Positions 29,282-58,956 of a stretch of 64,000 nt of DNA are shown here, piece after piece; within the stretch, counting starts at the first letter, position 1; the number at the start of each line of letters is the position of its first letter. The position numbers were made by a program, and so were the translations under genes. The notes under the pieces were generated by a model, which searched no databases, was not told the DNA's origin, and saw only the letters and a list, made by a program, of their open reading frames with translations. Source of the DNA: Clostridia bacterium (GTDB lineage Bacteria; Bacillota; Clostridia; Lachnospirales; Anaerotignaceae); NCBI GenBank assembly GCA_022651385.1, contig JALCQR010000002.1, forward strand, positions 248,001-312,000, in the 5' to 3' direction.

Positions 29282-30766
29282 TTATGCACCTTCAGCAATT
29301 TTATCAAGTATTAATTCTTTTCCGGAAATTCCAGGAGTTGTCATATTGTAAGCGTTCAAGATAACATCCAGTTGCTTTTGGTCAAGAATATTTTCACTCA
29401 GAATTAAATCACGTACAGAAATATTTTTAGCCAAAGCTTCTTTAGCAAGTTCCGCAGACTTGGTATAACCAATATGCGGGCAGAGTGCAGTTATAATACC
29501 AACACTTGAATTCAGAAATGCCCTGCACCGCTCTTCATTTGCTGTAATTCCTTCAATACAGTTACCGACAAAAGTATCAACCGCATTGCCGAGCATGTCA
29601 ATAGACTGAAACAGGCAGTCGAACACAACTGGCTCAAATGCATTTAATTCAAGCTGGCCAGCTTCAACGGCCATAGTAATTGTAACATCATTTCCAACGA
29701 TTTTAAATGCAACCTGACTTACAACTTCCGGAATTACAGGATTTACTTTTCCAGGCATGATTGAAGATCCGTTTTGCTTCGCAGGCAAGTTGATTTCTCC
29801 CAATCCTGTTTTAGGTCCAGATGACATCAGTCTCAAATCATTGGCAATTTTTGAAATTGAAATTGCACAGTTTTTTATAGCACCTGACACAGATGCAAAA
29901 CAGTCAATATTCTGCGTTGCGTCAATCAGATCATCAGCCTGCTTAAATGGAATTCCAGTAATGTCAGCCAGAGACTGAGCAATAGCGGAAAAGTATGTAT
30001 CATCTGCATTCAGACCGGTGCCGATTGCTGTTCCACCCATGTTAATCGTATAAAGCTGGGTTTCTGCCTTTTTTATAAGTTTAACACCTCTGTCCACAAC
30101 TGTAGCATATGCATGAAACTCTTGGCCCAGACGAATAGGCACAGCATCTTGAAGCTGCGTCCGTCCCATTTTAATTACGGAATCAAACTCTTTAGCTTTC
30201 TTTGCAAATGAATTCTTAAGCACTTTAAGTTTTTTCTCAAGAGTATGCAGCAGAACTATAGCTGTAATTTTTCCCGCAGTAGGAATAACATCGTTTGTGG
30301 ACTGCCCAAAGTTCACGTGATCATTTGGATGAATAACAGAGTAATCCCCTTTATCTTTGCCTAAACTTTCGATAGCAATATTGGCAATTACTTCGTTGGC
30401 ATTCATATTCATAGATGTTCCTGCACTGCCCTGAATAGGGTCAACAATAAACTGATCGTGATAATTGCCCTCAATAATTTTATCGCAAGCATATTCAATT
30501 GCCTTTGCAATTTTTTGATTTAATACACCTGCGGAGGCGTTAGTTATTGCACAGGCCTTCTTAAGCTGTGCTATACTTTTAATCATTTCAGGATGCATCC
30601 TCTTGCCAGTAATATGAAAATTTTCTAAAGCACGGGCAGCATGAATGCCGTAATAAGCTTCGCAAGGAATATATTTGCTTCCAATGGAATCATACTCCAA
30701 ACGCATGCCGTCTCTCTGTTGCTGCGTTTTTTCAATATGCGGATTAACTATTTTCATTGTATCCAT
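29282..30766 (-). CDS. aspA: Aspartate ammonia-lyase
   Basis: 494 residues. It deaminates L-aspartate to fumarate. Motifs: YYGIHAARALENFHITGKRMH (in part), GSAGTSMNMNANEVIANIA (in part), STNDVIPTAGKITAI, GRTQLQDAVPIRLGQEF, GGTAIGTGLNA and the catalytic SS loop GSSIMPGKVNPVIPEVVSQV (about 325-344). The NPVIPEV ending is the aspartase form, in contrast to NPTQCE in the next gene. GAAAGGGG precedes the ATG. It is the first gene of the operon and is divergent from a LysR gene. Length is somewhat greater than the usual ~470 because of an N-terminal extension of ~20 residues. Confidence 0.94.
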   Translation of the reverse strand: MDTMKIVNPHIEKTQQQRDGMRLEYDSIGSKYIPCEAYYGIHAARALENFHITGKRMHPEMIKSIAQLKKACAITNASAGVLNQKIAKAIEYACDKIIEGNYHDQFIVDPIQGSAGTSMNMNANEVIANIAIESLGKDKGDYSVIHPNDHVNFGQSTNDVIPTAGKITAIVLLHTLEKKLKVLKNSFAKKAKEFDSVIKMGRTQLQDAVPIRLGQEFHAYATVVDRGVKLIKKAETQLYTINMGGTAIGTGLNADDTYFSAIAQSLADITGIPFKQADDLIDATQNIDCFASVSGAIKNCAISISKIANDLRLMSSGPKTGLGEINLPAKQNGSSIMPGKVNPVIPEVVSQVAFKIVGNDVTITMAVEAGQLELNAFEPVVFDCLFQSIDMLGNAVDTFVGNCIEGITANEERCRAFLNSSVGIITALCPHIGYTKSAELAKEALAKNISVRDLILSENILDQKQLDVILNAYNMTTPGISGKELILDKIAEGA

Positions 30767-42887: not shown

Positions 42888-43445
42888 TCATGATATATAT
42901 TTTTTTATTCCCTTAACATCTTCTATGTATATTTCTTTCAGGCCTCTGTTATAAATAACCGATGCCGGATGATAGAGAGGATATAATTTATACCCGTTTA
43001 TATTTATCTCTTTACCATGATAATTGCCTATGGTAATGCTTTTACTGTTCATAAGTGCTCTTAATGGCACATTTCCAAGGGATACTATAAGTTTTGGATT
43101 AATTGTTTCTATTTCTTTTTTAAGAAGCGGCATAAAATCCATCATTTCTTCCCATGACGGTGTACGATTTATAACTTTTCCCGTTTTTTCACTTATGCTT
43201 ATAGGTCTATATTTTACCACGTTTGTTATATATAGTTTTTTTCTGTCAATACCAACCGTAAGAAGAAACTCATCAAGATTTTTACCGGCTCTTCCAACAA
43301 ACGGACGCCCGAGTTTTTCTTCTTCCCCTCCCGGAGCTTCCCCTACAAGCATTATAAGACTATTTACATTTCCATCACCAAATACAAGTTTTTTATCGCT
43401 GTATTTTTCAACATATTTATGTTTCATTTCCTCTAATGTTTCCAT
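42888..43445 (-). CDS. Uracil-DNA glycosylase family 4-like protein lacking Fe-S cysteines
   Basis: 185 residues. Family 4 motifs are plain: LMLVGEAPG-like LIMLVGEAPGGEEEKLGRPF (about 29-48), VGRAGKNLDEFL, YITNVVKYRP, LIVSLGNVPLRALM and the catalytic-type YHPAS (about 155-159). They indicate removal of uracil or a related base from DNA. Family 4 enzymes normally hold a 4Fe-4S cluster with four cysteines; here the N-terminal CxxC is gone, KCRP is KYRP and the last cysteine is Phe. The whole protein contains no cysteine. ATG at 43445 follows GGAGGGG. It lies next to a DnaA-box cluster. Confidence 0.88.
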   Translation of the reverse strand: METLEEMKHKYVEKYSDKKLVFGDGNVNSLIMLVGEAPGGEEEKLGRPFVGRAGKNLDEFLLTVGIDRKKLYITNVVKYRPISISEKTGKVINRTPSWEEMMDFMPLLKKEIETINPKLIVSLGNVPLRALMNSKSITIGNYHGKEININGYKLYPLYHPASVIYNRGLKEIYIEDVKGIKKYIS

Positions 43446-43509
43446 AATGCCCCTCCGTTTTCCGCCGTAAATATTAATTTTGTGAACAAATACTGTTAAA
43501 AATACAAAG

Positions 43510-43952
43510 TTATCCACAATTAAACCGCCTTATCCACAAAAAAAAGTTGATAACTTTAGATATGCACATTCTTATCAACTTGTGCACTTTTATTTTAACA
43601 CATTATATAGTAACATGCAGTACATTTATTTCAAAATATTGATATATTTACACAAAATATTAAAGTTATCAACATTTTAATATTTTCTTGTGCTTTTATT
43701 TTAAAATTCTCTCCACAATCACTCTTTTTTCTGCATTAGAAATTATTGTAAACCTGTATTTGTTATCATAATTTCTGATACTTTATAAATGCCGATTTTT
43801 CATTGTTTTTTGACTTTTTTTACCTGAATTTTAAAAAATATCATTTTTTTCTTATTTCTTATGTCAACCGAACGTATGAGTTATGCACATTATCCACAAT
43901 TTATATGTTGATAACTCATATTTATGTTTTCTCTTATTCACATTTATTCACT
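43510..43952. other. DnaA-box cluster in an AT-rich spacer
   Basis: Three perfect TTATCCACA boxes start at 43510, 43530 and 43890 (plus). TTATGCACA (43881) and TTATTCACA (43934) fit TTATNCACA. TTATCAACA occurs at 43666 (plus) and 43906-43914 (minus), TTATCAACT at 43572 (plus) and 43545-43553 (minus), and TTATTCACT at 43944. Some form inverted pairs (AAAGTTATC..GATAACTTT; GAGTTAT..ATAACTC). The middle (43600-43870) is strongly AT-rich. The 43446-43933 spacer has no gene. It could be a DnaA titration or replication-control locus. Confidence 0.7.
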
Positions 43953-44983
43953 GCTTTATTAATTTTTTCAATAATGAATACCATTAAAAAGCCGAAAATT
44001 ACTCCGCCCATATGTGCAAAATTATCAACATTTTTATCCATCATGCTTAGGCCAATTCCCGCTACTATAAATAGAAAAAGCGTAGGATAATTAAATCCCT
44101 GAACATCACGTTTATTTATCCTTACATATGCAAGCAGTGCTCCCATTATGCCGTAAACAGCTCCTGATGCGCCTATAGAATAACCTGTTAAAAACAAGGC
44201 GCTTACAAATGACGCAATTATTCCCGAAGCAATATATATTAACGTATACTTTAAATATCCAAAACATTTCTCACATATTCTGCCGAAAATATAGAGAGAA
44301 AAGCAATTATAAAACAAATGTACAAATGATATATGAATAAACATACACGTAAAAAGCCTATAAAACTGATGATTTTGAAAAACATCAGCACCGTTATTTG
44401 CAAAAATATAAGCTGTGTCTGTTCCAAACATATTAAGCAAAAGCCATATAACCGCGTTTATTGCTATTAACGAGTATGTAACAATAGGAGTTATATTTTT
44501 CTTCGACTCTTTATAAGCAGACGTTTTATTTTTAGAAAAGTCAAAATTATCCGAAAGAGATTTGTATATTGTATTTTGTATGCCAAATACCTTTGTCGGC
44601 TGATTTTTGCCAAAAAATAAGTTTTTGCCGTCTGTATACCACCAGACATTATTTAGTTTTGAATAATCCGGTTCTTTTGAGTCACAGTATTTTTTTAACT
44701 CATTCGTTTTAATATTGTCTGTATAAAGCAGATTAACAACTACAGCGTTAGTACATCGCATTTGATTTAACTTGGACTCTATATTTTTTTCAAGCACAGG
44801 CATTCTATCTTCTATCGACTCAAAAGAAATCATATCACAGTTAAAAACTTGTACCAAATACACAACTGGGTTTGAGATACGTATATAGATAGAAACTGAC
44901 GCTGAAGTTTCATTCGGTATCATAGATGTAAAATCCGAATCATTCATGCTTGTCTTAAATTTAATAAAAAAATCACTGTACAA
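43934..44983 (-). CDS. Rhomboid family intramembrane serine protease
   Basis: 349 residues. The C-terminal half has six membrane segments with the catalytic serine in GYSIGASGAVYGIMGALLAY (about 265-284) and the catalytic histidine in NFAHMGGVIFGF (about 325-336); the HISFVHLFYNCFSLYIFG segment carries the conserved HxxxxHxxxN-type region. The first ~180 residues form a soluble cytoplasmic-type domain with no recognised family. It cleaves membrane proteins within the bilayer; targets unknown. TTG start at 44983 behind AAGGCGGTGA. Some DnaA-box-like sites overlap its 3' end. Confidence 0.92.
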   Translation of the reverse strand: MYSDFFIKFKTSMNDSDFTSMIPNETSASVSIYIRISNPVVYLVQVFNCDMISFESIEDRMPVLEKNIESKLNQMRCTNAVVVNLLYTDNIKTNELKKYCDSKEPDYSKLNNVWWYTDGKNLFFGKNQPTKVFGIQNTIYKSLSDNFDFSKNKTSAYKESKKNITPIVTYSLIAINAVIWLLLNMFGTDTAYIFANNGADVFQNHQFYRLFTCMFIHISFVHLFYNCFSLYIFGRICEKCFGYLKYTLIYIASGIIASFVSALFLTGYSIGASGAVYGIMGALLAYVRINKRDVQGFNYPTLFLFIVAGIGLSMMDKNVDNFAHMGGVIFGFLMVFIIEKINKAVNKCE

Positions 44984-48818: not shown

Positions 48819-49703
48819 CTATCCTTTTATTCCTGATATGAGAGACATAAGTCTTTCAAGATCAGCGTCTGAGTAATATTCTATTTCAATTTTTCCCTTA
48901 TTTGTCTGGCTTTTTAACTTTACTTTTGTACCAAATATATTTTTAAGCGAATCTTCTATTGTTTTATAATTTTCAGTATTGAACTTTGAAGTTCTTTTTT
49001 CTTTAGGCTTCTTTTCCAAAAAGCGCTTTATCGTATCTTCAGCTTGTCTTACGCTCATTTCTTCTTCAATTATTCTTTCGGCAAACTCAAACTGAGTATC
49101 ACCGTCTGTTATGCTAAGAAGTGTACGGGCATGCCCTGCCGACAGCTTGCCACATCTTACAAGCTCCTGCACTCTCTCGTCAAGATTTAACAGACGCAAA
49201 ACATTTGCAACAGCCGAACGGCTTTTTCCAACTTTTGCAGCCAACTCTTCCTGACTTAAATTAAAATCATCGCAGAGCTTTTTATATCCTGAAGCTTCCT
49301 CCATAGGGTTAAGGTCTTCTCTTTGCAGATTTTCAGCAAGAGCAATTTCAAACAGCTGTTTATCCTCATAATCTTTAATTATAGACGGTATTTCTGTAAG
49401 CCCGGCTATTTTGGATGCTCTCCATCTTCTTTCCCCGGCAACTATCTCATAACAGTCATCATTTTTTTTAACAACTACAGGCTGAATTACGCCATACTGC
49501 TTTATCGAAGACGCAAGCTCTTCAAGACTTTCTTCCTGAAACTGCTTTCTCGGCTGATTTTTATTAGGCTCTATCTGATTTATGTCAATCATTACAACCT
49601 TATCTTTTGAAAAAGCCGGTTCAGACGCCATCTCAGACTCGAACAATGCGTCAAGACCTTTGCCTTTTCCCTTAGGCCCAAGACCGCTTTTTCTTATTGC
49701 CAA
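48819..49703 (-). CDS. parB: Chromosome-partitioning protein ParB
   Basis: 294 residues. It has the N-terminal KGLGxGLDAL-like lead (GPKGKGKGLDALFE), the CTP-binding/clamp motifs IEPNKNQPRKQF and EIVAGERRWRA, the ALAENLQREDLNPMEEA box, and the parS-binding HTH NLSQEELAAKVGKSRSAVANVLRLL (in part). ParB loads on parS sites as a CTP-gated clamp; two perfect parS sites lie ~0.9 kb upstream. TTG start one base after the parA stop, implying coupled translation. Confidence 0.97.
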   Translation of the reverse strand: MAIRKSGLGPKGKGKGLDALFESEMASEPAFSKDKVVMIDINQIEPNKNQPRKQFQEESLEELASSIKQYGVIQPVVVKKNDDCYEIVAGERRWRASKIAGLTEIPSIIKDYEDKQLFEIALAENLQREDLNPMEEASGYKKLCDDFNLSQEELAAKVGKSRSAVANVLRLLNLDERVQELVRCGKLSAGHARTLLSITDGDTQFEFAERIIEEEMSVRQAEDTIKRFLEKKPKEKRTSKFNTENYKTIEDSLKNIFGTKVKLKSQTNKGKIEIEYYSDADLERLMSLISGIKG

Positions 49704-49704
49704 A

Positions 49705-50478
49705 TCAATTCCACTCCTTTTCTATAACTTCTTCCGCAAGAAGACGATAGCTTTCTGCTCCTTTTGAACGATTATCGTACATTGTAATAGGTAGACCGTG
49801 GCTTGGTGCTTCACCAAGTCTTACGTTACGGGGTATTATAGTTTTATAAATATTACTCTTTAGCTCTTGTTTAACTTCCTCCACAACTTCCATTGAAAGA
49901 TTTGTTCTCGCATCATACATGGTAAATACTACACCTTCAAGCGATAACCGTGAATTAAGACGTTTTTTTACAAGACTTATGGTATACATAAGCTGTTCAA
50001 GGCCCTCAAGAGCAAAATACTCACACTGTATAGGCACAAGCACAGTGTCTGAAGCAGTTAGCGCATTTATTGTAATAAGATTAAGTGAAGGCGGACAATC
50101 TATCAATATAAAGTCATAATTTTTTTTAATGTCTTTAAGTGCAGAGTCAAGAATATATTCTCTTCTCTCTTGTCCAATAAGTTCTATTTCAGCTCCGGAA
50201 AGATTTATATTAGAAGGAATTATATAAAGCCCCTTAACACATGTATCATAAATAACATCTTCTATTTGTTTTTCTCCAAGCATCAAATTATAAACTGTAT
50301 TTTCAACTTCATTTTTTTCAAGGCCAAGCCCGCTTGTTGTATTGCCCTGAGGATCAGCGTCAATTACAAGCACCTTTTTGTCGGCCTCAGCAAGGCAGGC
50401 AGAAAGATTTATAGCTGTAGTTGTTTTGCCAACACCGCCTTTTTGATTTGTTATCGAAATTATTCTTACTCTGCCCAT
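49705..50478 (-). CDS. parA: Chromosome-partitioning ATPase ParA (Soj)
   Basis: 257 residues. Deviant Walker [21 protein letters not shown] (about 8-27), switch [18 protein letters not shown] and Walker [12 protein letters not shown] are all present. It acts with ParB in origin segregation and regulates replication initiation. AGGAG precedes the ATG; parB follows directly. Two parS sites lie 110-180 bases upstream. Confidence 0.98.
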
Positions 50479-57922: not shown

Positions 57923-58792
57923 TTAACTTTCCGCAATAGAAATAGTGATTTTTACACCGTTTTCATCTTTCTCTATATCGTAATCGGCATCTACACCGGA
58001 ACGTTTTATAATTTCAACAGAATGCTTTATCGTATTTGTAAAAAGACGTATATCAGAAAAACTTCTTTTTTCTCTTTTTGCTGCATAATATTCATCATTT
58101 CGCATTTTTTCAAGCTCACTGTTTACAAGCTCTTCTGTCTTTTTTGAGCTGAGTTCTTCTGTTATTACTTTATCCAATACCGATTTTTGAACATATTCAT
58201 CAGGTATACGCAGTATTGCTTTTGCGTGCCGCTCAGAAAGGCCGTTAATTACTATCATGCTGCGGACTTCTTTTGAAAGCTTCAAAAGACGGACTTTTCC
58301 GGAAATACATGCCGGACTTTTGCCAAACATATTAGAAATTTCTTCTACACTGAAATTATACTCGCTTATGAGCATATTATATCCTTCCGCTTCCTCCATA
58401 AAATTAAGGTTTTGGCGGTGCATATTCTCAGAAAGCGCCAAAAGAGCACTTTTGTCATCGTTTATTGAAAGAATTATAGCCGGTATTTTTTCAAGGCCTG
58501 CCGCTTTTGAAGCCATAAGCCTGCGTTCTCCGGATACAAGTTCATATGTACCATGGCCTAAAAAACGAACAGTTATAGGCTGTACAACACCAAATTTTTT
58601 TACCGATGCCGTTAGTTCATCCATACTTTCTCGGCTGAAATATCTCCTTGGCTGAGAGGGATTCGGCAATATATCATTTACAGGTATCATACTTGTATTA
58701 AGCGTTTCAGGCTTATTACTGGCAACAACAGCCTTACCCTGATTTTCACTCCTTTTGGTACAGAAATCTGAAAATTTGATTATATTTATCAT
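57923..58792 (-). CDS. noc: Nucleoid occlusion protein (ParB/Noc family)
   Basis: About 289 residues. ParB-fold motifs: LPNPSQPRRYFSRESMDELT (in part), YELVSGERRLMASKAAGL, LALSENMHRQNLNFMEEAEGY (in part) and the HTH FSVEEISNMFGKSPACISGKVRLL (in part). A second ParB-type gene directly beyond rsmG-mnmG is the Noc position in Firmicutes; the first is parB at 48.8 kb. Noc blocks FtsZ assembly over the nucleoid. ATG at 58792 follows GGGGAGGA; the longer frame starts inside the leader. No Noc-binding ATTTCCCGGGAAAT was seen nearby. Confidence 0.9.
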   Translation of the reverse strand: MINIIKFSDFCTKRSENQGKAVVASNKPETLNTSMIPVNDILPNPSQPRRYFSRESMDELTASVKKFGVVQPITVRFLGHGTYELVSGERRLMASKAAGLEKIPAIILSINDDKSALLALSENMHRQNLNFMEEAEGYNMLISEYNFSVEEISNMFGKSPACISGKVRLLKLSKEVRSMIVINGLSERHAKAILRIPDEYVQKSVLDKVITEELSSKKTEELVNSELEKMRNDEYYAAKREKRSFSDIRLFTNTIKHSVEIIKRSGVDADYDIEKDENGVKITISIAES

Positions 58793-58956
58793 TGAGCGTC
58801 CTCCCCTTTTATGCTTGTCCATTTATCAACTCTGTCTTTGATTATACCAGCTACTTTTCAACACATACACTATTTTTATACACTTTTTTATGTAATAAAT
58901 CGACATAAATTAAATAATTATTTATTATTTTTTATCGCAATTAGTGCAATTTAAAC

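Follow-up and report, generated by a model that had tools for sequence, protein, structure and literature searches.

What is a dense group of DnaA boxes doing between a uracil-DNA glycosylase (UDG) gene and a rhomboid protease gene, some 23 kb from dnaA? The group lies in a 64,000-nucleotide stretch of a Clostridia bacterium contig (hereafter, the window, to which all plain coordinates refer). We describe the boxes and their place relative to the origin, compare the locus across related genomes, and weigh the possible functions.

The box cluster in the window

The sequence-only reading of this stretch had listed three perfect boxes and further variants on both strands within ~440 bp, an AT-rich core, and flanking UDG and rhomboid genes. 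All of these boxes are present at their sites, the stretch is 76% AT, and the neighboring genes match the respective Pfam families. At positions 43501-43952, there are seven DnaA boxes with at most one mismatch to TTATCCACA, three of which are perfect (starting at 43510, 43530, and 43890). The boxes form two modules within a single intergenic spacer, along with some additional sites:

42888-43445, minus strand: UDG-superfamily uracil-DNA glycosylase gene (PF03167, E 6e-30), directly downstream of the element
43447-43933, no strand: intergenic spacer that houses nearly the whole element
43510-43553, minus strand: core three-box module (module 2), read toward UDG, 1 mismatch in 27
43545-43553, minus strand: module 2 box I, TTATCAACT, 15 bp to the inverted box II
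43530-43538, plus strand: module 2 box II, inverted, TTATCCACA, 20 bp to box III
43510-43518, plus strand: module 2 box III, TTATCCACA
43666-43674, plus strand: DnaA-box variant TTATCAACA between the modules
43881-43914, minus strand: second module (module 1), inverted pair and a third box
43906-43914, minus strand: module 1 first box, TTATCAACA, 16 bp to the inverted box
43890-43898: module 1 inverted box, TTATCCACA, 9 bp to the next box
43881-43889: module 1 third box, TTATGCACA
43934-43942, plus strand: DnaA box TTATTCACA, which overlaps the rhomboid gene at its 3' end
43934-44947, minus strand: rhomboid protease gene (PF01694, E 2e-35), directly upstream of the element; start codon chosen inside the longer ORF 43934-44983
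44022-44030, plus strand: TTATCAACA within the rhomboid gene, a possible outlying box that may be due to chance

The cluster is genuine and far above chance. Dinucleotide shuffling of this stretch (2,000 rounds) yields 0.26 boxes on average and 3 at most. When all 452-bp windows across the 64 kb were scanned with a step of 50, those with at least four boxes were confined to starts 43451-43851. The reservation that AT-rich spacers in general might carry boxes at a similar density falls away: windows with at least 72% AT located away from the cluster contain 0.20 boxes on average. The genome-wide count that had been suggested as a check finds 42 perfect boxes across the 2.61 Mb; the reversed-pattern control has more matches, 65. 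At least two perfect boxes occur within 500 bp at four places in the genome, one of which is the dnaA-dnaN spacer, and the cluster is the sole place with three. In a separate region of this genome (G000:C3:83159-83188, L161), flanked by a macro-domain gene on one side and a ribosome hibernation (S30AE) gene on the other, a tandem array combines two perfect boxes with one TTATCCACT.

As anticipated from gene order, dnaA lies past the right end of the 64 kb, with its ATG at window-equivalent position 66,861, 22.9 kb to the right of the cluster. In the window's genome (G000), dnaA is flanked by box groups. The cumulative GC skew, computed from position 30,001 over 44 kb, falls through the cluster and rises only after the bin that contains the dnaA start. 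In a complete relative (G035; 100 kb examined), in which the cluster is ~35 kb from dnaA, the skew also turns at dnaA. There is no skew switch at the cluster in either genome and, because the skew turns at dnaA, the cluster is not an origin. The proposed additional initiation site is thus abandoned, and a second replication origin or a part of a split oriC, which would fit the clustering of boxes in AT-rich DNA, is extremely improbable given the skew minimum at dnaA and the box groups that flank this gene. Between the cluster and dnaA, there are two ParB-family genes ~8 kb apart (57923-58822 and 48819-50478), one of them in a soj-parB pair.

A three-box core across the family

We searched 60 genomes, including that of the window, and found a UDG match in 42. 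Close UDG relatives (E <= 3e-48) are present in 35 of the 36 genomes of the window's family, its own included, and the DNA upstream of these 35 genes, from 17 genera, was compared; the remaining genome (G032), in which a distant paralogue is the only UDG relative, was excluded. For G018, the contig end limits the upstream DNA to 284 bp; UDG starts in the relatives are estimated from alignments rather than from start codons, and gene names were confirmed by Pfam. The family (f1) includes Anaerotignum lactatifermentans (G006), Tyzzerella sp. An114 (G008), and Candidatus Metalachnospira gallinarum (G016). The NCBI taxonomy assigns Anaerotignum to Anaerotignaceae, order Lachnospirales, and we infer that f1 corresponds to Anaerotignaceae.

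Relatives keep the cluster. The 700 bp beside the UDG start contain 199 boxes with at most one mismatch across the 35 genomes, compared to a mean of 9.5 and a maximum of 19 in 200 rounds of shuffling. Five upstream regions lack boxes, namely, those of G002, G016, and G028 (all of genus g3), G005, and G015; G005 has only a partial cluster that is separated from UDG by a gene. Conservation of the boxes extends to upstream DNA of 45-51% GC. A chance accumulation of AT-rich words, suggested by the 76% AT of the stretch, is refuted by this conservation and by shuffles of the window stretch, of the upstream regions, and of the three-box core, all of which fall far below the observed values; the probability of this reading is negligible.

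The sequence-only reading saw the cluster itself but missed its principal feature, a fixed geometry of three boxes (the triad) that is kept across the family. Read toward UDG, the core consists of box I, 15-16 bp to the inverted box II, and another 20 bp to box III, which faces the same direction as box II. Of the 35 genomes, 27, from 14 of the 17 genera, contain the inverted pair at 16 bp, and 25, from 12 of the 17, contain the direct pair at 20 bp; in shuffled sequences, no geometry is common to more than two genera. The entire core (27 positions) is present in 24 of the 35 upstream regions at up to three mismatches and in 30 at up to five, a level that none of 1,400 shuffles reached. The 15-16/20 geometry at up to four mismatches is observed in 28 genomes and is kept in 13 of the 17 genera. 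Even G014, which has only two boxes at the one-mismatch threshold, retains the triad at two mismatches. The spacing of module 1 (16 and 9 bp) is less widespread, with 16 genomes from 9 genera at up to four mismatches; a second inverted pair or extra boxes are common in many genomes of the family. The triad keeps its inner geometry at variable distances from the UDG start (62-612 bp). The sequence comparison indicates that the element is old.

Two further regularities were considered and rejected. A 125-bp spacing of same-strand boxes across the modules, reminiscent of helical phasing, was seen in 5 genomes from 3 genera and is not kept in most genera. An RNA hairpin, for which the palindromic pair could form a stem, is disfavored as well, as many genomes pair TTATCAACA with TGTGGATAA, leaving an uncompensated A-G mismatch, and we accordingly read the inverted pair as a site for a protein.

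Among the best 80 of 353 named UDG loci, which total 1.12 Mb, the core is found beside UDG in 25 and at no other position; the 35 genomes already include 15 of these 25 records, and two (L074 and L075) come from one genome. Two more of the 80 loci belong to family genomes without the triad. The remaining 53 comprise 50 without an upstream box and 3 with one each, so that boxes are not a general feature of the UDG family. In nine loci outside the box-bearing group (L019, L073, L077, L079, L081-L083, L109, and L127), rhomboid and UDG abut or overlap, so that a spacer does not fit between them; just two of the nine, L082 and L127, have a box, one each. The two loci from one genome, that of Anaerotignum neopropionicum (NZ_LRVM01000001.1, at ~311 and ~465 kb), reflect 20,570 bp that occur identically twice on one contig, each copy with rhomboid, cluster, and UDG, which is either a large duplication or an assembly duplicate.

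UDG and dnaA are on the same contig in 16 of the 35 family genomes; in the other 19, dnaA is on a separate contig (17) or was not found (2). Where the distance is measurable, it is usually short: 15 of the 16 genomes have UDG 4.3-35.8 kb to one or the other side of dnaA, and the distance is 351 kb in G002. Among the 15 is G015, which nevertheless lacks the cluster. UDG is ~30 kb from dnaA in Anaerotignum sp. MB30-C6 and 16 kb in the genome of locus L065, whereas the two identical copies of A. neopropionicum are 50 and 203 kb away; G024, where the distance is ~64 kb or more, is a clear exception. Symmetric inversions about the origin preserve such distances by themselves, so nearness to dnaA alone is modest evidence.

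Locus specificity and the departure of genus g3

Across the 60 whole genomes, the inverted pair TTATNNACA-N7-TGTGNATAA occurs at 26 distinct places in 21 genomes, with 20 of the 36 family genomes represented, and 23 of these places are upstream of UDG. With both strands counted, the pattern read backwards yields 4 matches versus 36. The three places elsewhere are G000:C1:16567, G013:C172:1131, and G053:C12:37190, the last of which adjoins dnaA of another family. The first of these (G000:C1:16567-16622, L160) is a second head-on box pair (N7) in the window's genome, accompanied by a third box and located between a UPF0047 (YjbQ-like) gene and an HlyD-type membrane-fusion gene; the second (L186) is a head-on pair beside an smpB gene. 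The exact pair TTATCMACA-N7-TGTGGATAA is found at 22 distinct places in the 60 genomes, one of which is module 1. The exact direct pair TGTGGATAA-N11-TGTGGATAA occurs once each in 14 of the 36 family genomes, always upstream of UDG; read backwards, it has no match in the 60 whole genomes. Mismatch-free pairs are thus limited to 20 (inverted) and 14 (direct) of the 36 family genomes, and the boxes are degenerate elsewhere.

We also compared the core with the dnaA loci, taken as 1.5 kb on either side of the C-terminal match, which covers part of the DNA before dnaA. In the family, none of 19 such loci contains the core at up to four mismatches, the best scores ranging from 5 (3 loci) to 10. In 11 dnaA loci of other families, the best scores range from 4 (2 loci) to 9, with 4-5 reached in 4 of the 11. 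Because dnaA loci also reach 4-5 mismatches, core scores in that range are weak evidence on their own.

The most informative departure from the common setting is genus g3, presumably Candidatus Metalachnospira, represented by G002, G016, and G028. In all three genomes, UDG lacks boxes, and the triad, with one or two mismatches, is located in a short gap between a DUF4446 gene and a gene for a HAD-like hydrolase, and is oriented the opposite way relative to the hydrolase gene. In G002, the only one of the three in which the distance from the triad to dnaA is measurable, the triad follows a soj-parB-DUF4446 run ~19 kb from dnaA, with UDG 351 kb away. The equivalent DUF4446 place in G000, G014, and G005 has no such box group. 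The g3 triad may have moved to this location or may have arisen there anew. Around dnaA of G002 (G002:C2:20165-22066, L146), seven of the nine strong DnaA boxes have the TTATCAACA form. In a departure of another kind, G013 and G027 carry the cluster upstream of UDG with no rhomboid gene found alongside.

Candidate functions and known DnaA-box systems

Of the roles suggested by the sequence-only reading, a titration locus akin to datA or to the Bacillus clusters and a DnaA-regulated promoter both remain under consideration, with a control locus favored over regulation of UDG alone. We lean, if only slightly, toward the view that the spacer is an origin-proximal cis element that would bind DnaA and act on its pool or activity. 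Under this scenario, several DnaA molecules would assemble on the triad into a defined complex that tunes the amount of DnaA, or of its active ATP form, that is free to fire the dnaA-oriC region 23 kb away, in a mode comparable to that of the Bacillus DnaA-box clusters or of E. coli datA and DARS. Such a complex could well also influence transcription of the neighboring UDG gene as a side effect. We favor such a control element because its inner geometry is fixed while its distance from the gene varies, and because of the g3 case.

The strongest competitor is the possibility that the boxes are the regulatory region of UDG, such that DnaA bound at the promoter or in the 5' leader would repress or activate this gene with the cell cycle or under replication stress. 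We entertain this explanation seriously, if tentatively, because UDG accompanies the core in 30 of the 35 genomes. In 24 of the 30 core-bearing genomes, the core is located 62-121 bp upstream of the UDG start; it also stays with UDG in the two genomes that have no rhomboid gene found alongside (G013 and G027); a promoter-like block just 5' of the core appears, by eye, to be kept in several genera; and DnaA acts at several Bacillus promoters. However, the three g3 genomes have UDG without boxes and a triad that persists behind the DUF4446 gene, pointing the opposite way to the HAD-like hydrolase gene. Furthermore, the distance from the triad to the UDG start varies tenfold, 50 of the 53 named UDG loci outside the box-bearing group have no upstream box (the other 3 have one), and a promoter consensus scan of the window spacer gives no clear excess (8 matches versus 5.2 +/- 2.3 in shuffles). 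Control of the DnaA pool and control of UDG can both be true.

A plain titration sink, in which the geometry of the boxes is irrelevant, would explain why many boxes are gathered at one place, and there is a precedent in the early initiation that, according to the review PMC5295017, follows deletion of six clusters in B. subtilis. However, a sink could dispense with fixed spacing and orientation, whereas 14 of the 17 genera share the 16-bp spacing and 12 the 20-bp spacing, and G014, with two boxes at up to one mismatch, retains the triad at two mismatches; we regard a mere sink as improbable. Still less probable, in our judgment, is an operator of another dimeric regulator that resembles DnaA boxes, with a 25-bp palindrome TTATCMACA-N7-TGTGGATAA as its site. 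The pair is indeed palindromic and unusually specific to one locus, but its half-site is an exact 9-bp DnaA box, the third box is not inverted but in line, and the TTATCAACA variant is also used in the regions around dnaA in G002 and G016.

The putative control element can be compared to several well-known systems. The DARS loci of E. coli are far from oriC, unlike the element described here. The core spacing, start to start, is 14 and 12 bp in both DARS1 and DARS2, compared to 15-16 and 20 bp (or 16 and 9 bp) here, and no upstream region among the 35 has the 14/12 spacing at up to four mismatches. The resemblance lies in orientation: as in the triad, box I of the DARS1 and DARS2 cores is opposed to boxes II and III (PMC5742627, in the section on the core; NC_000913, in which we assigned boxes I-III by place and orientation). 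This arrangement is described as essential for the release of ADP from DnaA in the relevant passages of PMC10380432 and PMC5742627. The triad may work like DARS but differs from it in spacing, so we do not assign it to DARS. The neighborhoods are similar as well, with repair genes near the DARS cores as UDG is here: in E. coli (NC_000913), the DARS1 core is in the bioD-uvrB spacer, and the DARS2 core precedes mutH by ~0.5 kb, rppH and the small ORF ygdT being closer to it.

The DnaA-box clusters of B. subtilis are, like the cluster analyzed here, multi-box groups outside oriC in Bacillota, and the pertinent passages of PMC4447404 and PMC5295017 place five of the six strong clusters upstream of genes and describe effects on initiation timing as well as use as promoter sites. 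The genes involved, as listed there, differ from UDG: ywcI/vpr, gcp/ydiF, trmE/jag, ywlC, yqeG/sda, and yydA. A definition given in PMC7561715, at least three DnaA boxes with a mean distance below 100 bp outside oriC, covers the present case, with seven boxes in 452 bp located 23 kb from dnaA. In E. coli, datA offers a functional analogy as an intergenic group of DnaA boxes that lowers active DnaA; it needs an IHF site between the boxes, as stated in the part of PMC4585315 concerned. Within 900 bp scanned at datA, there are two boxes with at most one mismatch, facing the same direction 67 bp apart, unlike the inverted triad. The oriC1 and oriC2 regions of C. difficile share the box motif and multi-box groups with the cluster, but this bipartite oriC flanks dnaA and contains an unwinding region, according to the corresponding passages of PMC7561715, whereas the triad is absent from the dnaA loci of the family (0 of 19 at up to four mismatches).

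A bolder variant of the DnaA control element would be an autonomous regulator of the DARS type, in which a fixed three-box complex near the origin, with a spacing of its own, remodels DnaA via nucleotide exchange or forced hydrolysis; such a device would usually precede a repair gene but could leave it, as in g3. We deem this variant rather unlikely. Should it be true, Gram-positive bacteria would have, to our knowledge, their first DnaA-activity locus with a defined architecture. Initiation control in B. subtilis is described as acting on DnaA assembly, and the account in PMC5295017, in the passages on such control, mentions no regulator found for the nucleotide state of DnaA.

Clusters of DnaA boxes outside oriC are a known kind of locus, and the apparently new part is the three-box geometry that is fixed family-wide, tied to one locus in most genera and to another in one genus; among the matches listed in our search of open papers, in the portions available, there is no such element from Lachnospirales. 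A putative DnaA element that has a fixed geometry and occurs beside differing genes is a defined, testable object. It raises the question of whether a device similar to DARS or datA has evolved in Gram-positive bacteria and that of whether it is a coincidence that such elements neighbor DNA-repair genes (uvrB, mutH, UDG). Genus g3 provides a natural experiment that parts replication control from regulation of the neighboring gene.
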